A DNA stretch of 64,000 nucleotides, taken from Vulcanisaeta thermophila. Lineage in GTDB: Archaea; Thermoproteota; Thermoprotei; Thermoproteales; Thermocladiaceae. Location: positions 537,177-601,176 of the forward strand of contig NZ_BCLI01000001.1 in NCBI RefSeq assembly GCF_001748385.1, written 5' to 3'. The translations under genes and the position numbers were made by a program. Position 1 is the stretch's first letter; each line of letters starts with the position of its first letter. The notes under the pieces were generated by a model. The model was given only the letters and a program-made list of their open reading frames with translations. It was not told where the DNA came from and ran no database searches. Below, in pieces: positions 24,164 through 33,315 of this stretch.

Positions 24164-25558
24164 TTATTTAGTTATGATTTCTATTTGTGTTCCCTGGGCT
24201 AGGGTGTCGTGTACTGGGCATCTCTCTTCAGCTTCCTTTATTATGCTGTTTATTACGTCCTTCGGCGCTGTTGTTGATATGCTGAGTTCTATTCTTATGC
24301 GTGTTAGGCCGGCTCTTCCAGTTTTTACTATTCCTCCGAATCTAGCGGGGTTTAATGAACCGGTTATTGTTAGTTGCATTGTGTCTATTTTGATGCCCCT
24401 TTCCTTGGCTATTTTCCTAATTGTTACGTTCATGCACCCGGCTAAGGCGAGTAGTAGGTATTCTATTGGGTTTGGTGCTGTATTTGTACCTCCGGCCTCC
24501 TCTGGTTCATCTACTATTACCTTGAAGTTTCTGATGGAGGCCTCTATCTTGGTGTCGGATATTGATACTGCGGTTACGCTGAAAGAGACTTCAGGTGGCG
24601 GTGGTAATCCAGGTAATACTTCATGTGGTTTTTCAATTAGTTCCTTGAGTTTACCTAAGAATTGGGCGCCTACGTAGCCGTCAATTACCCTGTGATCGAG
24701 GGTTAAGCTGAGTGGTAGTAGTTTTTTACCGTTAATGTCCCTGATTTTTCCAATACCGAGTATTGCGACCTCTGGGGGATTTATTATTGGTGTGAAGTAA
24801 GTGACTTCGGTCATTCCTAAGTTACTTATTGTGAATGTGGACCCAGTTAATTCCTCTGGTGTGGCTTTGCCCTGTCTAACGTCGTCAACGACCTTCCTAA
24901 TGTTCTTAGTGAGTGTGTCGAGGTCCATTGTGTCGGCATTCTTGACTACACCAACGAAGAGTCCTTGGTCTGTTTGTATTCCGATGCCAAGGTGTACGTG
25001 GTTGAATACTCTGATTTCGTCGTTAACAACATGGGCATTAAGGTTTGGGAATTCCTTGAGAGCCTTGATTACGATGTATGAGAGTAGTTCTGTGTATGAG
25101 TAATCCCTGAACCTCAACTCCCTGAGCCTTACTAACTCTGTGGCGTCAACATCTGTGTGCAATGTATACTGTGCCGCTGTTCTCAAGCTTTCAGTCATTC
25201 TATCGGCAATTACCTTCCTGACACCTCCAATCTTAATTACCGAGTATTCCTCAACCTTTGGTGCAATGACTTGTGGTGCGGGTTGCGGTATAGGTGCTGG
25301 TGTTGGGGTTGGTGGTGCAGCTACCTCTTCAATCTCTGCCAGTGGGTCGCCTGGCTTGACCCTAGTGCCCTTCTGGGCTATTATTCTTGTTAATTTACCG
25401 TCAACTGGGCTTTCTACTATGTATGTGGCTTTAATCACCATTATTTGGCATAAGGGTTCTTTCTTTTTAACGAGGTCTCCTTCCTTTTTATACCACTCTG
25501 TTATAACCCCTGGCCCGTACCTATCGTAATTCCAGAGATTGGGCACTGTAACAAGCAT
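24164..25558 (-). CDS. 2-oxoacid dehydrogenase E2 acyltransferase fused to an OsmC peroxidase domain
   Basis: A 464-residue fusion. Residues 1-78 are a lipoyl domain with the lipoyl-lysine candidate K43 in QIMVIKATYIVES; 79-102 are a Pro/Ala linker; about 105-320 are the E2 catalytic domain ending SLTLDHRVIDG (His289). No peripheral-subunit-binding domain is visible between them. Residues about 325-464 form an OsmC-type domain with both expected cysteines, C375 in ALAGCMNV and C447 in EERCPVHD. E2 transfers acyl groups to CoA; OsmC/Ohr proteins reduce organic hydroperoxides with electrons from lipoyl groups. The ATG at 25558 begins at the lipoyl domain, and upstream frame is not conserved. 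Divergent from lipoate ligase genes and near E1 genes. Confidence 0.85.
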   Translation of the reverse strand: MLVTVPNLWNYDRYGPGVITEWYKKEGDLVKKKEPLCQIMVIKATYIVESPVDGKLTRIIAQKGTRVKPGDPLAEIEEVAAPPTPTPAPIPQPAPQVIAPKVEEYSVIKIGGVRKVIADRMTESLRTAAQYTLHTDVDATELVRLRELRFRDYSYTELLSYIVIKALKEFPNLNAHVVNDEIRVFNHVHLGIGIQTDQGLFVGVVKNADTMDLDTLTKNIRKVVDDVRQGKATPEELTGSTFTISNLGMTEVTYFTPIINPPEVAILGIGKIRDINGKKLLPLSLTLDHRVIDGYVGAQFLGKLKELIEKPHEVLPGLPPPPEVSFSVTAVSISDTKIEASIRNFKVIVDEPEEAGGTNTAPNPIEYLLLALAGCMNVTIRKIAKERGIKIDTMQLTITGSLNPARFGGIVKTGRAGLTRIRIELSISTTAPKDVINSIIKEAEERCPVHDTLAQGTQIEIITK

Positions 25559-25601: not shown

Positions 25602-25619
25602 TCTAGAGCTTTAGTATTG

Positions 25620-25901
25620 ATGCCGTTAATTAATGAGTATAAGGCTAAGAAGGGCTTGATAAGGGTTAGATTAAGACTTAGTGATGATGGTAGGATATCT
25701 TGGATTAGAATAACGGGTGATTTCTTCATGTATCCTGAGGAGGCCTTACTCATGCTTGAGAGGTCATTGGTTGGGGTCAAGTTTAGTAGGGATGAGGTTA
25801 GTAGGGTTATTCATGGATTTTTCAGTAGTGGTGTTAAGGTTCCCTTTGTGACTGAGGAGGACTTTGTAGAGGCAATAATGGGTGTTCACGATGAGGGTTA
25901 G
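25620..25901 (+). CDS. lplB: Lipoate-protein ligase accessory subunit
   Basis: A 93-residue protein matching the C-terminal domain of lipoate-protein ligases, which is a separate gene in archaea: YKAKKGLIRVRLRLSDDGRISWIRITGDFFMYPEEAL. In Thermoplasma this subunit is needed with LplA to activate lipoate as lipoyl-AMP. The ATG at 25620 is leaderless. The gene overlaps lplA by 11 bases, so the two are translated together. It is divergent from the E2-OsmC gene, whose lipoyl domain is the obvious substrate. Confidence 0.85.
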   Translation: MPLINEYKAKKGLIRVRLRLSDDGRISWIRITGDFFMYPEEALLMLERSLVGVKFSRDEVSRVIHGFFSSGVKVPFVTEEDFVEAIMGVHDEG

Positions 25902-26682
25902 GCTCGTCGAGCATGAGTTTCTGGATAATCCAAGGATGAGCCTGGCGGTTGAGGAGGCTATTTTTAGGCTTATGATTCTTGGTAAATCACCACCAACCTT
26001 CTGGTTTTGGAGGCATAGGAATGCTGTGATTATAGGTAAGTTTCAGATCGCGGAGGAGGAGGTTAACATGGATGTTGCTCAACAGTACGGTGTGCAAATA
26101 GCCAAGAGGGATACTGGTGGTGGTGCTGTGTATCAGGATCTCGGGAACTTGATATATTCAGTGATAATACCTGATGTCTACGGGGTCAGTAATGATGTTG
26201 TTAAAATGTATGAGATAATGATAAACCCGGTACTATTAGCATTTAAGAAGCTTGGTGTTAAGGCTGAGAGTCCTGGGCTTAATGATGTTGAGATTAATAA
26301 TAGGAAAGTCCTTGGTTCAGCCGCGAGTTTAAGGGAGGGTTTTGTGCTCTTTCACGCAACTATGCTCATAAGGAGTAACCTGGATATGCTTGCCAAGGTC
26401 CTTAAGGTTCCGCGTACGAAACTTCAAGATAAGGGTGTTACTCAAGTTAGTCATAGGGTTGGTAATATTTATGATCTAACAGGTAAGGATATGGATGAGG
26501 TTAAGGAGGCATTGTTAAAGGGTTACTCGGAGTACCTGGGCTTTGAGTTTTACAAGGATGAGTTAACAGAACGTGAGCTCAAGCTTGGTGAGTACTTGTA
26601 CCATAATAAGTATAATAGGCCTGAGTGGGTTTTTAGTAGGGAGTTTATTAATGTCGAGATCCCCAGAGAATTAATTGAATGA
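25891..26682 (+). CDS. lplA: Lipoate-protein ligase catalytic subunit
   Basis: A 263-residue protein of the biotin/lipoate ligase fold: WFWRHRNAVIIGKFQ near residue 40, the RDTGGGAVYQDLGNL motif, and GSAASLREGFVLFHATML with the lysine-bearing NNRKVLGSAA segment. It joins lipoate to a lysine of lipoyl domains through lipoyl-AMP. The ATG at 25891 lies 11 bases before the end of lplB; upstream codons would extend the protein beyond the conserved start. It converges on the AcoX-like gene, overlapping its stop by 12 bases. Confidence 0.9.
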   Translation: MRVRLVEHEFLDNPRMSLAVEEAIFRLMILGKSPPTFWFWRHRNAVIIGKFQIAEEEVNMDVAQQYGVQIAKRDTGGGAVYQDLGNLIYSVIIPDVYGVSNDVVKMYEIMINPVLLAFKKLGVKAESPGLNDVEINNRKVLGSAASLREGFVLFHATMLIRSNLDMLAKVLKVPRTKLQDKGVTQVSHRVGNIYDLTGKDMDEVKEALLKGYSEYLGFEFYKDELTERELKLGEYLYHNKYNRPEWVFSREFINVEIPRELIE

Positions 26683-27681
26683 TTCAAAGAATCCCCTTTC
26701 CCTCGCTATACTAAGGGTTTTCTTGTAATCAATAATAAATGGGCCACTCCTAATAGCCTCGACTGTTAAATCACTCCCTGGATCGACCAGGAACTCCCTC
26801 TCACCATCTAGGGCTATTAATGTTGAGCCAGGGCTCAAATGAATTCTCTCTCCAAGTCTCACCTCCCTAACCTCTGCAATACTAATTTTGCTCATTTTAC
26901 CTGGTGTTATTGCAGCCCTGAATGACTTACCGGCTCCATTCCTTGATAATCTAACGTACACAGCCTCATCATTCTCATGCCCAACCTCCTTAAATAAGCC
27001 GGCTATTGATGATAAGCCAATGTTATACGGAGCACAGAGTACAGCAAATACCTCCCTTATGTACTCGGGTTCCCAAATTGCCCTGGCACCTACGTATTGG
27101 TACGATGTAGATACTACATCGACTATCGCCACATCCCTGTATTCACCGTCCTCATAAACCCTAATAACCTTACTCTTATATGTGCCCTCTTCAATTTTAA
27201 CGTAACCAAGCACTATGGCTGCGACAGCCTCTGCTGCGACGGTGGCCTCTATCATGTATGGGAATACATTATTCGTACCAGTCGATATGGGCATGACGGG
27301 TACCTCAATACCTGTCTTAGCAATTATCCTATTAGTCCCATCACCACCAAGGACTATTAACGCGTCAATCTTACCAATCATATACCTAACGGCATCGTAC
27401 GTATCCACCCAGGTACCACTAACCCTTATTGGTGCGTACTCGTATTCAATATCCTCAATAGCATTATTTGGTAATGAGTGAAGTGCCGTGGTTACGATGC
27501 CATCGGGTTCGGGCATTATTATGTACCTGTTAATACCGAGGTCAAGAAAGGTCATTATTAATTTACGCACAATGTTCATCTTCTCAGAATTATCAAAAAC
27601 ACTGGCATAGGCAACCAATCTTCTAATATCCCTACCAGCCTGTGGGTTAACTACGAGGCCCACCACGGGGCTTCTAGGCAT
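26671..27681 (-). CDS. AcoX/NAD kinase-like protein, copy 1
   Basis: A 336-residue protein with the NAD/diacylglycerol kinase fold: VGLVVNPQAGRDIRRL at the start, LIVLGGDGTNRIIA (the GGDG nucleotide motif) near residue 112, and PVMPISTGTNNVFPY. Proteins of this kind (AcoX) accompany acetoin dehydrogenase genes, but their reaction is not established. Another copy lies at 29819-30793; together they flank the E1 alpha-beta pair. The ATG is leaderless below a TAAATAAATAA region near 27706. The context supports a role in the dehydrogenase island, possibly in cofactor supply. Confidence 0.75.
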   Translation of the reverse strand: MPRSPVVGLVVNPQAGRDIRRLVAYASVFDNSEKMNIVRKLIMTFLDLGINRYIIMPEPDGIVTTALHSLPNNAIEDIEYEYAPIRVSGTWVDTYDAVRYMIGKIDALIVLGGDGTNRIIAKTGIEVPVMPISTGTNNVFPYMIEATVAAEAVAAIVLGYVKIEEGTYKSKVIRVYEDGEYRDVAIVDVVSTSYQYVGARAIWEPEYIREVFAVLCAPYNIGLSSIAGLFKEVGHENDEAVYVRLSRNGAGKSFRAAITPGKMSKISIAEVREVRLGERIHLSPGSTLIALDGEREFLVDPGSDLTVEAIRSGPFIIDYKKTLSIARERGFFESFN

Positions 27682-27796: not shown

Positions 27797-28807
27797 ATGG
27801 CACAGAGAGAGGAGTTAAGTAAGGATAAGCTTATGTGGATGTATGAGACTATGGTCAAGATAAGGCTCCATGAAAATAAGGCCGCTGAGCTCTTCGCTCA
27901 GGGTAAGATTAAGGGTTTTGTACATTTGTATGTTGGTGAGGAGGCTGTGGCAACTGGTGTTATGGCTGCATTAAAGCCTGGTGATGTGATTACAGGGACT
28001 CATAGGAGTCATGGTCACTATATTGCCAAGGGTGGCGATCTAAAGGCATCCTTTGCGGAATTATTTGGTAAAAGGACAGGTAGTAATAAGGGTAAGGGTG
28101 GTTCAATGCATATTGCTGATCCAGGTATCGGTATGCTTGGTGCCAATGGAATGGTTGGTGGCGGTATACCACATGCGGTTGGTGCTGCGTTGGCCTTTAA
28201 GTTATTGGGTAAGGATAATGTGGCCGTTGCCTTCTTTGGAGAGGGTGGTTCAAACCAACAGAACTTCCATGAGGCAATTAACCTAGCCGCAATTTGGAAG
28301 CTTCCTGTGGTATTTGTCTGTGAAAATAATTTATACCAAATATCGCTTCATTACTCAAAGCAGCAATTAATAACTAGCGTTGCCGAGAGAGGTAAGGCCT
28401 ATGGAATACCTGGTGTCAGTGTTGATGGTCAGGACGTACTGGCAGTTTATGAGGCTGCTAGGGAGGCTGTTGAGAGGGCTAGGAGGGGTGAAGGACCAAC
28501 ACTAATTGAGGCTAAGACGTATAGGTTCAGGGGCCACTTTGAGGGTGATCCCGAGGTTTATAGGTCTAAGGAGGAGGTTGAGTGGTGGATTAATAATAAG
28601 GACCCAATAAAGTTATTCGAGAAGTACCTGTTAGAGAGAAATATAGCTACTAGGGATGAACTTGACGCGGTATGGAAGCGCGTGGCTAAGGAGATTGAGG
28701 ATGCTGTGAAGTTCGCTGAAGAGAGCCCATACCCAAGTCCTGAGGAGCTCTATGAGGATGTGTTTGCAAAGCCGACAAATGGGGTATTAGTTTGGAGGTG
28801 GGATTGA
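27797..28807 (+). CDS. 2-oxoacid/acetoin dehydrogenase E1 alpha subunit
   Basis: A 336-residue ThDP-dependent subunit. The cofactor motif reads FFGEGGSNQQNFHEAINLA to ENN (residues 147-178); the usual GDG is GEG here. The THRSHGHYIAKGGD and GKGGSMHIAD segments are typical of pyruvate or acetoin dehydrogenase E1 alpha. With E1 beta it decarboxylates a 2-oxo acid or cleaves acetoin and passes the acyl group to lipoyl-E2. The ATG is leaderless under ACTTAAAAAG at 27764-27773. It is followed 10 bases later by E1 beta. AcoX-like neighbours favour acetoin, but pyruvate or branched-chain acids remain possible. Confidence 0.85.
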   Translation: MAQREELSKDKLMWMYETMVKIRLHENKAAELFAQGKIKGFVHLYVGEEAVATGVMAALKPGDVITGTHRSHGHYIAKGGDLKASFAELFGKRTGSNKGKGGSMHIADPGIGMLGANGMVGGGIPHAVGAALAFKLLGKDNVAVAFFGEGGSNQQNFHEAINLAAIWKLPVVFVCENNLYQISLHYSKQQLITSVAERGKAYGIPGVSVDGQDVLAVYEAAREAVERARRGEGPTLIEAKTYRFRGHFEGDPEVYRSKEEVEWWINNKDPIKLFEKYLLERNIATRDELDAVWKRVAKEIEDAVKFAEESPYPSPEELYEDVFAKPTNGVLVWRWD

Positions 28808-28817
28808 GGTGGTGAAG

Positions 28818-29816
28818 ATGGCAAGTACAAGGGAGATAACGTTTGTACAAGCCCTGAACGAGGCGCTGGATTATGCAATGTCCGTGGATAAGAGGGTAAT
28901 AATAATGGGTGAGGATGTGGGTATTTATGGTGGTGTTTTTGGAGTTACAATGGGGCTATACGATAAATACGGCCCAGAGAGGGTTAGGGATACCCCAATA
29001 GCTGAGTCTGGTTTCATAGGGGCTGCGGTAGGCGCGGCAATGATGGGGTTAAAGCCAGTTGTTGAACTCATGTTCATAGACTTCTTGGGCGTGGCATTTG
29101 ATCAAATATATAACCAGGCAGCGAAGCTTAGATACATGACTGGTGGTAAGGTTAAGGTGCCCATGGTCCTCAGAACAGTGTGCGGTGCAGGTATTCAAGC
29201 GGCTGCTCAGCATTCTCAGTCATTACATGCATTATTTATTCACGTACCTGGGCTTAAGGTTGTGATTCCATCAACACCGTATGATGCCAAGGGTCTTTTA
29301 TTAACGGCGATACTTGATGAGGAGGACCCGGTGGTATTTATTGAGCATAAGATGCTCTACGGCATTAGGGGCCCGGTGCCTGAGGAGCCGTATAAAATAC
29401 CGTTTGGTGTAGCTGATGTTAAGAGGGAGGGTAAGGATGTCACTGTTATTGCAACGGCATGGATGGTGCACAGGGCCCTTGAGGCTGCTGATAAGTTGGC
29501 TGGTGAGGGTATTAGTGTCGAGGTTATTGATCCAAGGACCTTGGTGCCACTTGATGTTGATACGATACTGAACTCAATAAAGAAAACAGGTAGGCTTGTA
29601 GTTGTTGATGAGGGTTATCCAAGGGCGTCCTTTGCAACCGATATAGCGGCTCTTGCAGTGTCAAAGGCCTTTGAATACCTTAAGGCGCCAGTCAAGCTGG
29701 TCACGCCACCAGCAACACCGGTGCCGTTTAGTGAGGTTTTAGAGCGTGAGTGGATACCAAGTACTGAGAAGATAATGAAGGCAATAAGGGATGTTTATTA
29801 CTATAAGAGGCCATAA
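28818..29816 (+). CDS. 2-oxoacid/acetoin dehydrogenase E1 beta subunit
   Basis: A 332-residue transketolase-type subunit: IIMGEDVGIYGGVFGVT, RVRDTPIAESGFIGAAVGAA, AQHSQSLHALF, and a C-terminal domain with VIDPRTLVPLD and GRLVVVDEGY. It completes the E1 active site with the alpha subunit. Start: the ATG at 28818 is preceded by GAGGTGGTGAA, a strong ribosome site; a GTG at 28809 would overlap that site. The two E1 genes form an operon. Its stop is two bases from the stop of the convergent AcoX-like copy 2. Confidence 0.87.
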   Translation: MASTREITFVQALNEALDYAMSVDKRVIIMGEDVGIYGGVFGVTMGLYDKYGPERVRDTPIAESGFIGAAVGAAMMGLKPVVELMFIDFLGVAFDQIYNQAAKLRYMTGGKVKVPMVLRTVCGAGIQAAAQHSQSLHALFIHVPGLKVVIPSTPYDAKGLLLTAILDEEDPVVFIEHKMLYGIRGPVPEEPYKIPFGVADVKREGKDVTVIATAWMVHRALEAADKLAGEGISVEVIDPRTLVPLDVDTILNSIKKTGRLVVVDEGYPRASFATDIAALAVSKAFEYLKAPVKLVTPPATPVPFSEVLEREWIPSTEKIMKAIRDVYYYKRP

Positions 29817-29818
29817 TC

Positions 29819-30793
29819 TTATGAACAGTTAAAACATTGCCTTAAAAATAATTCCTGAATTGCCTTATTAACGTCTATTATAACAGGGCCTCCCTCATCA
29901 GCCATTACCTCAACATAGTCGCCATCGAATACCTCCACCTCTCGCTCGCCATCAAGCTCGATTGTATACGCCTTACTTATTGGTACTTTGACGCCTAACT
30001 TTATCTCCTCGACCTTATCAATACCTACGTTAGTTACATAACCAGGCATTAATATCGCCTTAATGTTGAATCTCGATCCGATTACCACATGAAGAATCCT
30101 ATCATTAGGTAAGCCATTAGGTTTCAGGGCAGCGCCTATTGATGCCAAACCAATACTAAGCGGTTTCACCAGTGATATGAAGACCTCAGTTACCATGTTA
30201 GGATTAGTCACAGCCCTTGCACCCTTAAATGGATAAAGGGTTGCTCCTAAATCGACCAATGCCTGGTCGATAACCTCACCATTTATTATTAATAATACCC
30301 TCTTTAACCTGTACATGGCATTAATAACTAAGCCATTAGCCACCGCAGCTGCAATGATGCCTGCCAGTGTACCATCGATGAAGTATGGTATTACGTTATT
30401 AGTACCAGTAGATATTGGGAGTAATGGAGTATTACCAGAGACCTTAGATGCGACTCTTACGGTACCATCACCACCGAGGATCACTATACTACCTACGTTT
30501 TCCTTAACCATCTCCCTAACGGCATTGACAGTGTCTGTATAATCGCCTTTGGGTTTCATATCTATAAAGCTCCACTTGAGGTTTAATTGCGGTAAATCCC
30601 AAAGTGCGTGAGCCGCAATTCCATAGAAATCCGGCATTATTAGGACTTCACCAACGCCCACGGCTTCAATACCCTTTAATAAACTCTTAACAATACGCGC
30701 CTTTTGCATAATATCGACAAAGCCTGCCGTTGACGTGGCCCTCCTAATATCTGTTCCAGATACTGGATTAACTATTAGACCAACCTTATGCAA
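29819..30793 (-). CDS. AcoX/NAD kinase-like protein, copy 2
   Basis: A 324-residue paralogue of the protein at 26671-27681: KVGLIVNPVSGTDIRRA, IVILGGDGTVRVASKV and LLPISTGTNNVIPYF. The start is a TTG at 30793 with GGTGAT four bases upstream; no ATG is in a suitable place. The gene sits between the E1 operon and the fused E1 gene on the minus strand. Role unknown; the GGDG and STGTNN motifs suggest nucleotide binding. Confidence 0.72.
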   Translation of the reverse strand: MHKVGLIVNPVSGTDIRRATSTAGFVDIMQKARIVKSLLKGIEAVGVGEVLIMPDFYGIAAHALWDLPQLNLKWSFIDMKPKGDYTDTVNAVREMVKENVGSIVILGGDGTVRVASKVSGNTPLLPISTGTNNVIPYFIDGTLAGIIAAAVANGLVINAMYRLKRVLLIINGEVIDQALVDLGATLYPFKGARAVTNPNMVTEVFISLVKPLSIGLASIGAALKPNGLPNDRILHVVIGSRFNIKAILMPGYVTNVGIDKVEEIKLGVKVPISKAYTIELDGEREVEVFDGDYVEVMADEGGPVIIDVNKAIQELFLRQCFNCS

Positions 30794-30840: not shown

Positions 30841-32883
30841 TCATCTATACTTCATTAATTCCTTAACAGTATCCACTATCCTATCTACCGATGGTATTAT
30901 AAACTGCTCAAGGGGTCTGCTGTAGGGTATTGGCACATCAGGCACGGCCAATCTCTTAAAGGGCGCCTTTAGGTAACCATAAGCCTCCTCGAGTACTATA
31001 GCCGCTACTTCACCGGTTAAGCCAAAGCTTAGGTAGTCCTCGTCTACGACTAGTACCCTACCTGTCTTCTTAACGCTGTTTATGATCGTCTCCTTATCAA
31101 GGGGCTTTATTGTCCTTAAATCAATAACCTCGACACTAATACCCTCACCAGCCAACTTATCAGCAGCCTCCAATGCGTAGTGTACCATGAGACCTGCTGT
31201 GATAATGGTAATGTCCTTACCCTCCCTGGCAATTCTAGCCCTGCCAATTGGTACAGTATACTCTTCCTCGGGCACGTGAGTCAATGCGGTCTTCGGGTAC
31301 GACATCCACGGCAAACCTAGGATTTTCTTATGGAACATGTATACCACGGGGTCGTCATCCCTAATGGCACTTATCATTAATCCCTTGGCATCATACGAAT
31401 TAGAGGGCACTACTACTTTGAGCCCAGGTACATGGGCAAATAGGGCATAGAGCACTTGGGAGTGCTGAGCCGCGTCATTATATCCACCACCGATTGCGGT
31501 TGTTAGAACAATGGGCATCTTAACCTGCCCACCAGACATGTAGTGGTTCTTGGCCATGTGATTGAATATTTGATCAAATGCCACGCCCAAGAAGTCCACA
31601 AACATAAGTTCCACTATTGGTCTCATACCAACCGCAGCAGCGCCCACGGCGGCCCCAATAAAGCCAGCCTCAGAAATAGGAGTATCCCTAACCCTCTCAG
31701 GCCCAAACTTGGCACATAGGCCTTGGGTTATACCAAATATGCCGTTATAGGCACAAACATCCTCGCCCATGTAGAATACCCTTGGATCACGCTCCATTTC
31801 CTGCGCTATTGCCTCTGAAATCGCCATATACGCAGGCAATACCCTACCACTCATGGACGGCCAACCAACATCAGCTTTACCAACCGGCTCCGGCGATGAA
31901 AATACATCTCTAAGGGCCTCCTCAGGCTCTGGATATGGACTATCTAAGGCGAATTTGATTGCTTCATCAACCTCAGCCCTGGCCCTAGCCTGTATCTGGG
32001 AATCCTCCTTTTCGTCAAGCCAACCTCTCCTCATTAATTCATCCCTAACCCTAATTATTGGATCCTTCTTCCTAAGCTCCTCAACCTCCTCCTTAGGTCT
32101 ATAAACCTCGGGATCGCCCTCAAAATGTCCATAAAATCTATAAGTCTCTATTTCAATTAGTGTTGGTCCTTCACCCCTCCTAGCCCTCTCAACAGCCTCC
32201 CTAGCGGCTTCGAATAAGGCGAATAAGTCATTATCGGGTACGAAGACCCCAGGTATTCCGTAAGCCGTAGCCCTGTCGCTATTCCTAGTTATTGCTGTTG
32301 ACTTTGATTTAGGCGTTGATATCGCCCATTTATTATCCTCAATTATGAATATCGCTGGTAACTTCCAAATTGCGGCTAAATTCAAAGCTTCATGGAAAGT
32401 ACCCTGGTTAGCCGCGCCGTCACCACCATAGGCAACTGCTACATTATTCTTCCCCTGAAGCTTAAAAGCCAACGCAGCACCAATAGCTTGCGGGAATGCT
32501 GCACCAACGATTCCACTGCATGCAAAATTAACCGTTGAATCAAACAAATGCATATGCCCACCTTTACCCTTACCAAGCCCTGTCTTTTTCCCAAAAATCT
32601 CAGCTGCCAGCTTCTTTAAATCAACGCCCTTAGCAATAGCCACATGATGAGCTCTGTGGGTTGCAAATACTGCATCCTGCGGAGTTAGATGAATCATAAC
32701 CCCCACCGCAGCCGGTTCCTGACCAGCTGCTAAGTGCATCTCACCTGGTATTGGACCAGCACCTATGTCAAAAATAGGGGTCTTACCCTCCCAATACCAC
32801 TTCCTTATCGTATCCTCAAAATAACGTATCTTAACCATTAACTCGTACATCTTTAAGGCAGTATCTCTTGTTAGCTCAACCAT
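30841..32883 (-). CDS. Fused E1 alpha-beta 2-oxoacid dehydrogenase
   Basis: A 680-residue protein that contains both E1 subunits in one chain. The alpha part (about 1-330) has THRAHHVAIAKGVD, GKGGHMHLFD and AYGGDGAANQGTFHEALNLA with EDN in place of ENN; the beta part (about 350-680) has MGEDVCAYNGIFGITQ, RVRDTPISEAGFIGAAVGAA and AQHSQVLYALF. It is a different enzyme from the separate E1 pair nearby, although the sequence is clearly related. Start: the ATG at 32883, rather than a TTG at 32886; a box near 32912 fits. It is 47 bases upstream of AcoX-like copy 2 and probably shares its mRNA. Confidence 0.88.
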   Translation of the reverse strand: MVELTRDTALKMYELMVKIRYFEDTIRKWYWEGKTPIFDIGAGPIPGEMHLAAGQEPAAVGVMIHLTPQDAVFATHRAHHVAIAKGVDLKKLAAEIFGKKTGLGKGKGGHMHLFDSTVNFACSGIVGAAFPQAIGAALAFKLQGKNNVAVAYGGDGAANQGTFHEALNLAAIWKLPAIFIIEDNKWAISTPKSKSTAITRNSDRATAYGIPGVFVPDNDLFALFEAAREAVERARRGEGPTLIEIETYRFYGHFEGDPEVYRPKEEVEELRKKDPIIRVRDELMRRGWLDEKEDSQIQARARAEVDEAIKFALDSPYPEPEEALRDVFSSPEPVGKADVGWPSMSGRVLPAYMAISEAIAQEMERDPRVFYMGEDVCAYNGIFGITQGLCAKFGPERVRDTPISEAGFIGAAVGAAAVGMRPIVELMFVDFLGVAFDQIFNHMAKNHYMSGGQVKMPIVLTTAIGGGYNDAAQHSQVLYALFAHVPGLKVVVPSNSYDAKGLMISAIRDDDPVVYMFHKKILGLPWMSYPKTALTHVPEEEYTVPIGRARIAREGKDITIITAGLMVHYALEAADKLAGEGISVEVIDLRTIKPLDKETIINSVKKTGRVLVVDEDYLSFGLTGEVAAIVLEEAYGYLKAPFKRLAVPDVPIPYSRPLEQFIIPSVDRIVDTVKELMKYR

Positions 32884-33315
32884 CAAATTAAATAAAGTTA
32901 ATCAATATTAAAGCTTTACTTACAGTGTAATTAATGATTTAATATAATTATGATACAATGTTTTGTAAATAATTTCATATATACAGATTAAAATAAATAT
33001 TATCTTAATGCTATATATAGTCTATACATAGTAATGTTTTATTCATTATATACCTATGATGAATAAAAATTAGAATTTCTAACTAAGATTATAAGGTGAA
33101 ATTTAAGACGGTAAAACATGATTTATTACTAATGACTTTTCTATTTATGAATATAGCAAACTAGACATTGTTTTCGTTAAGTACTCCCTAGTTGTTAAGT
33201 TTAGTTTTAGCATGACAAACAAGGTTAATTATTAGACGAGGAAGCTTAATCTTAAGTAAGAGTGTTCCTTTGCTGACTGGTAGGACTTTATATGAGAGTG
33301 ATAGGTATGAGGTTA
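32884..33315. other. AT-rich spacer, no gene
   Basis: Very AT-rich; it holds the promoter of the fused E1 gene but no supported coding frame or RNA. Confidence 0.5.

Follow-up and report, generated by a model that had tools for sequence, protein, structure and literature searches.

It is established that the Ohr and OsmC peroxidases receive electrons from lipoylated E2 and Lpd proteins (PMC4486171; PMC8945050), and the statement of the first-pass annotation that these enzymes can draw electrons from lipoyl groups of E2-type proteins repeats a published fact (PMC4486171). In the lipoyl-dependent peroxidases exemplified by Ohr of Xylella, Mycobacterium, and Corynebacterium, an OsmC fold with two cysteines acts with a lipoylated partner at hand, donor and peroxidase being separate proteins; an Ohr structure with dihydrolipoamide exists (6ebg, among the structure matches of this analysis). 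An OsmC of Trichomonas acting with the H-protein belongs to the same group, as a work cited in PMC10332631 indicates. In OsmC enzymes the active site lies where the two subunits of the dimer meet, and the catalytic Glu of Ohr/OsmC precedes the peroxidatic Cys by 10 residues (Glu51 and Cys61 in XfOhr) (PMC5962072). A further type, the YhfA proteins, retains the cysteines while both Arg and Glu are absent, and its activity is unknown (PMC8945050; PMC4069020).

The window, a 64,000-nucleotide stretch of the genome of the hot-spring archaeon Vulcanisaeta thermophila, contains a gene in which a lipoyl domain, an E2 acyltransferase domain and an OsmC domain are joined in one reading frame. It shares the OsmC fold, the two matching cysteines and the availability of a lipoylated partner with the Ohr/OsmC peroxidases, from which it differs in combining donor and acceptor in one chain and in missing the catalytic Glu and the Arg loop. 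The YhfA-like proteins without the canonical Arg and Glu (E. coli YhfA, GSU2788 of structure 2opl, and 1lql) resemble it in having no Glu 10 residues before the Cys (position C-10), but they are stand-alone proteins. OsmC is part of a longer chain, as in the fusion, also in the OsmC-YcaO proteins (TIGR03549) and in a 400-aa OsmC protein (9wo1), for which neither a lipoyl nor an E2 domain is known. No description of the lipoyl-E2-OsmC fusion was known to the first-pass annotation, and none was found in the literature searched; a study of archaeal gene fusions does not mention OsmC (PMC11237513).

A conserved fusion gene under selection

The single-chain architecture proposed by the first-pass annotation is borne out by Pfam, which finds all three domains in one 464-aa ORF (Table 1), and the positions given for K43, DHRVIDG (288–294), C375, and C447 agree with the translation and the alignments. 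The protein has the features of a 2-oxo acid dehydrogenase E2, namely a lipoyl domain with a modifiable lysine (K43, in a region identical in the orthologue described below) and a PF00198 domain with the DHRxxDG motif. The peripheral-subunit-binding domain (PSBD), a feature of most, not all, E2 proteins, is missing from the linker as annotated: the PF02817 profile, which detects PSBD in 10 of 14 control genomes, gave no match in the fusion protein or in the whole V. thermophila genome.

Table 1. Features of the fusion gene and its neighbours (positions in the window)
Feature	Position	Strand	Remarks
lipoyl-E2-OsmC fusion gene	24164..25558	-	Vulcanisaeta thermophila; 464 aa plus stop; no internal stop in translation
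lipoyl domain, residues 5–76	25331..25546	-	Biotin_lipoyl PF00364, E 2.4e-14
K43 codon, predicted lipoylation site	25430..25432	-	IMVIKATY motif
Ala/Pro-rich linker, ~25 residues (81–105), without PSBD	25244..25318	-	no PF02817 match
E2 acyltransferase catalytic domain, residues 104–315	24614..25249	-	2-oxoacid_dh PF00198, E 2e-67
E2 active-site motif DHRVIDG, residues 288–294	24677..24697	-	D288, H289, R290, D293, G294 invariant in E2 alignment
OsmC domain, about residues 325–464	24167..24586	-	PF02566 at 357–461, E 4.4e-23, 82 bits
C375 codon, peroxidatic-Cys position	24434..24436	-	aligns with first Cys of E. coli OsmC and YhfA
C447 codon, resolving-Cys position	24218..24220	-	Cys in 39/48 alignment rows, Ser in 7/48
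lplB, lipoate-protein ligase small subunit, divergent neighbour	25617..25901	+	NF053749, 81.5 bits (cut-off 65); PF10437
lplA, lipoate-protein ligase catalytic subunit	25882..26682	+	PF21948; sole LplA-B_cat match in genome
AcoX-like protein (NAD_kinase family)	26671..27681	-	PF01513; 32% identity over 97% to annotated acetoin catabolism protein X
E1 alpha, Aco-type	27797..28807	+	PF00676; highest scores against E1 of AcoX-bearing and acoABC clusters
E1 beta, Aco-type	28809..29816	+	PF02779/PF02780; tree
second AcoX-like protein	29819..30793	-	phmmer match to bacterial and haloarchaeal AcoX genes
second E1, a single chain of fused alpha and beta	30841..32886	-	E1-beta part groups with fused E1 of the Thermoproteota genome G277

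A full-length orthologue, 87% identical over residues 1–463, is present in the complete genome of a congener (G117), where the surrounding genes follow each other as in V. thermophila (fused E1, AcoX-like, E1 beta, E1 alpha, AcoX-like, LplA, fusion gene), with the small LplB gene not called separately. The dN/dS values between the two genes are ca. 0.02 for the lipoyl, 0.05 for the E2, and 0.12 for the OsmC part (dS near 0.7–1.3), and such low values indicate that all three parts are maintained by purifying selection. No ATG, GTG, or TTG codon occurs at residues 296–360 of the V. thermophila gene, so the junction offers no start for a separate OsmC protein. A third Vulcanisaeta genome (G123) retains only residues 226–461, as a rearranged 3' remnant in which E2 and OsmC sequences are contiguous. 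The sequence error by which two genes might have been joined, named by the annotation as a possible refutation, is ruled out by the syntenic orthologue and the purifying selection; at the DNA level, misassembly is thereby refuted, and the fusion stands as a gene that is conserved and under selection. Apart from the patchy distribution within Vulcanisaeta, nothing was found in favour of an artefact, whether misassembly or two proteins made from one ORF, and this explanation is hardly credible.

The G123 remnant (L034 1456–2205) comprises a part of E2 and the whole OsmC and lies next to the same formamidase gene, with the relative orientation of the two reversed. A dN/dS of about 0.09 against G117 suggests that the sequence is still under constraint.

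No fusion was found in the remaining nine Vulcanisaeta genomes. E1 (PF00676 over the cut-off), LplA, and the fusion co-occur in exactly two of the 12 congener genomes, and E1 and LplA vanish together with the fusion, which indicates that the whole complex is kept or lost as one. The absence from close relatives that the annotation had considered damaging is therefore real for most congeners, where the fusion is gone with its entire complex, while one congener has it intact and another as a remnant. The search for the same architecture in relatives, which the annotation had proposed, yielded the G117 orthologue as the one full-length case; no other E2-OsmC fusion or close pair is present among the matches listed for 398 Thermoproteota genomes (202 with OsmC, 77 with E2), and the 80 of 279 OsmC relatives listed in a scan of named genomes include none fused to E2. 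No record of the plasmid collection covers 80% of the fusion query, and in the viral collections neither the OsmC domain nor E2 has relatives. Fusions may occur in lineages outside this sample. A second-fusion candidate suggested by tblastn, on the Haladaptatus halobius plasmid NZ_CP085337.1 (L199 7239–9059), was rejected, as it consists of an E2 followed by stop codons and then an N-terminally truncated OsmC; the locus looks degraded and the E2 itself is ordinary.

Gene neighbourhood and lipoate supply

As in the Aco clusters with AcoX, AcoX-like proteins are encoded on both sides of the Aco-type E1 genes in the window. The first of them shows 32–34% identity over 97% to Paracoccus proteins encoded directly upstream of acoA–acoB–acoC, and the same position of acoX upstream of acoABC is found in Chelatococcus. 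In the E1-beta tree, both V. thermophila E1 proteins fall into a moderately supported clade (93/84) with the E1 of AcoX-bearing or acoABC clusters of Alphaproteobacteria, haloarchaea, and G277, to which the common type of archaeal 2-oxo-acid dehydrogenase E1 does not belong. The cluster thus has Aco-type E1 alpha and beta subunits and two AcoX-like genes, but the E2 departs from the Aco pattern: bacterial AcoC is of the lipoyl-alpha/beta-hydrolase type and matches NF011457, whereas in V. thermophila a genuine acyltransferase (PF00198) is joined to OsmC. On the strength of the AcoX-like kinases and the E1 phylogeny the complex is read as Aco-type, with a true acyltransferase as E2, and by this kinship it would presumably act on an Aco substrate. 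The first-pass annotation overlooked this membership, although the AcoX-like and E1 neighbours mark a complex of the acetoin dehydrogenase type.

The cluster comprises two different E1 enzymes, one of separate subunits (27797–29816) and one of a fused chain (30841–32886), with a single E2. The fused E1 is closest in the tree to that of G277, which at L197 2553–7093 has an Aco-like cluster with an AcoX-like gene, a stand-alone 93-aa lipoyl protein, a fused E1, and a separate E2 core, possibly representing the arrangement before the fusion. Thermoproteota complexes such as that of G277 (locus L197) have the lipoyl protein, the E2 core, and E1 in common with V. thermophila, and G277 in addition the fused E1 and the AcoX-like gene; they differ in that lipoyl domain and E2 are separate proteins and that no OsmC is encoded in the 14 kb read. 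In Paracoccus (L200 10973–11302 and L207 10968–11297) a gene for a carboxymuconolactone decarboxylase of the AhpD-like superfamily lies beside acoXABC. The AhpD proteins, too, form an antioxidant family linked to lipoyl groups, and this proximity is possibly a parallel to the OsmC fusion.

The fusion protein is the only E2 and the only OsmC of the V. thermophila genome. Neither GcvH nor LipA was found there, and with a sole E2 and a sole lipoate ligase the recognisable lipoate machinery appears to serve the fusion protein alone. The source of lipoate must then lie outside the cell or in another pathway; probably it is scavenged for use by a single protein. No E3 gene is present in the cluster. 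An E3-like protein encoded on contig C6 scores 606 bits to NF004943, well above the cut-off, and keeps the redox-active motif GGNCLYEGCVPSK. Its gene is equally present in congeners without E1, E2, and LplA, which argues against its being dedicated to the complex; a partial replacement of E3 by OsmC is accordingly possible. An ORF judged by eye to be superoxide-dismutase-like (L069 12666–13310, contig C6) lies a few kb away from it.

Fold and active site of the OsmC domain

The C-terminal domain certainly has the OsmC fold: its AlphaFold2 model has a mean pLDDT of 95.5, and Foldseek gave 63 PDB matches at E <= 0.001, of which 2opl (the best solved match, E 5.7e-12) and 1lql are the closest. 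Both cysteines, C375 and C447, align with those of E. coli OsmC and YhfA. The catalytic Glu of the Ohr/OsmC peroxidases is replaced by Ile365 at C-10, a position that is never Glu in the 48-row OsmC alignment (most commonly Val, Thr, Tyr, Ile, or Leu). A Glu is present at C-9, as in YhfA; the invariance of this residue (E366) and of C375 in the 48 rows is in part a product of the search pattern and carries no weight here. The comparison with E. coli OsmC further shows that the loop bearing its Arg has no counterpart in the fusion. R343, an Arg in 36 of 44 alignment rows, could be a candidate substitute for the OsmC-type Arg. With Ile365 at C-10 and without the OsmC Arg loop, the active site resembles that of YhfA.

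The Mycoplasma genitalium OsmC MG427 reduces hydroperoxides (PMC9262362). As in the fusion, the aligned stretch of the M. pneumoniae protein 1lql has no Glu at C-10. The two proteins are presumably orthologues, so the lack of the catalytic Glu does not exclude activity. Of the OsmC-type models, NF041052 (OsmC-related (seleno)protein) scores best, just missing its cut-off (91.5 against 95 bits). In a tree of OsmC proteins, the fusion domain groups with stand-alone OsmC proteins of Thermotogota, haloarchaea, and Sulfolobales (support 82/84), and most of its relatives are stand-alone. A peroxidase function is plausible from the sequence, though weakened by the active-site changes. The self-contained lipoyl peroxidase envisaged by the first-pass annotation is accordingly upheld in its parts, i.e., the fusion, the lipoyl lysine, and the two cysteines, and put in doubt by Ile365 and the absent Arg loop.

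Roles of the attached OsmC domain

The reading preferred here, tentatively and with a probability of about 0.45, is that the fusion protein is the E2 of an acetoin-dehydrogenase-type complex carrying a permanently attached two-Cys OsmC oxidoreductase, fed by the lipoyl arm and acting on peroxides or sulfur oxidants. The products of the adjacent lplA and lplB would attach lipoate at K43, where E1 would load an acyl group onto the arm. Its transfer to CoA by the E2 core would leave a dihydrolipoyl arm, and this arm, or one from an adjacent subunit, might then reach C375 and C447 and reduce their disulfide. The OsmC cysteines would pass the electrons on to a hydroperoxide or a sulfur-based oxidant, while the arm would be kept cycling by E3 or E1. 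Both the lipoylation of K43 and the transfer from the arm to OsmC are inferred steps. E2 cores are trimers with the C-termini near two-fold contacts, and on such general grounds an OsmC dimer could be seated at the two-folds of the core. The substitution of Ile365 for the catalytic Glu and the loss of the Arg loop count against the model. A model of the full-length protein is poor (pLDDT 57, pTM 0.40), because its alignment contained no E2 sequences, and offers no basis for the distance from K43 to the cysteines.

The final oxidant is most likely a peroxide, hydroperoxides having the most precedent, with persulfide or polysulfide as the next candidates. Sulfur species are suggested by the YhfA-like site, by the growth medium of V. 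thermophila, which contains sulfide and thiosulfate (PMC5069417), and by the linkage of osmC to metY and metX in Kiloniellaceae. In the six Kiloniellaceae MAG loci (L090, L091, L092, L094, L095, and L098) an osmC of the same branch lies directly upstream of metY–metX without exception, and aco genes are within its reach in four, at varying distance. Constant met neighbours suggest a role in sulfur metabolism and not one as a lipoyl peroxidase, and the acoABC–osmC proximity was therefore counted as weak, not as independent support.

The OsmC domain might instead have no lipoyl-linked redox role and be a dimerising or substrate-binding addition, or act on a separate substrate, the fusion serving to tie expression or assembly; this is possible, if rather doubtful. 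The YhfA-like active site, the faster evolution of the OsmC part than of the lipoyl and E2 parts, and the intact OsmC reading frame of the G123 remnant, which has no lipoyl domain, would all suit it. OsmC proteins are dimers and E2 cores trimers, as is generally known, so that the added domain could alter assembly. However, the fusion orthologue and most relatives retain both cysteines, OsmC is a textbook acceptor of lipoyl electrons, and the genome's only lipoyl-E2 and only OsmC are joined in one chain.

It is also conceivable, though improbable, that OsmC largely stands in for E3, re-oxidising the dihydrolipoyl arm and delivering the electrons to a peroxide, a disulfide, or a sulfur compound, so that no bound E3 is needed. 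No PSBD is found in the protein or the genome, and the cluster has no E3 gene, the E3-like gene lying on another contig and occurring also in congeners devoid of E1, E2, and LplA. Nevertheless, this E3-like protein is well above its family cut-off with its motif preserved, and several Thermoproteota complexes with separate lipoyl and E2-core proteins are likewise without a linked E3 in the loci read, and without OsmC. The corresponding coupling in cis, i.e., carbon oxidation driving the reduction of peroxide or a sulfur oxidant through re-oxidation of the lipoyl arm by OsmC without a bound E3, is quite improbable.

The electron link between Ohr or OsmC and lipoyl E2 proteins is known only between separate proteins, and on the preferred reading of a lipoyl-fed OsmC a natural fusion would mean that in evolution it has become built into a single protein. 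The V. thermophila protein would also provide a single heat-stable polypeptide for testing the transfer from arm to OsmC, and a way to approach the function, as yet unassigned, of the YhfA-like OsmC branch. An Aco-type complex thus seems to be present in an anaerobic, sulfur-exposed hyperthermophile, where it is apparently the sole user of lipoate, and the pairing of its lipoyl-E2 with OsmC hints that the reduction of peroxide or a sulfur oxidant may be wired into a metabolic enzyme.
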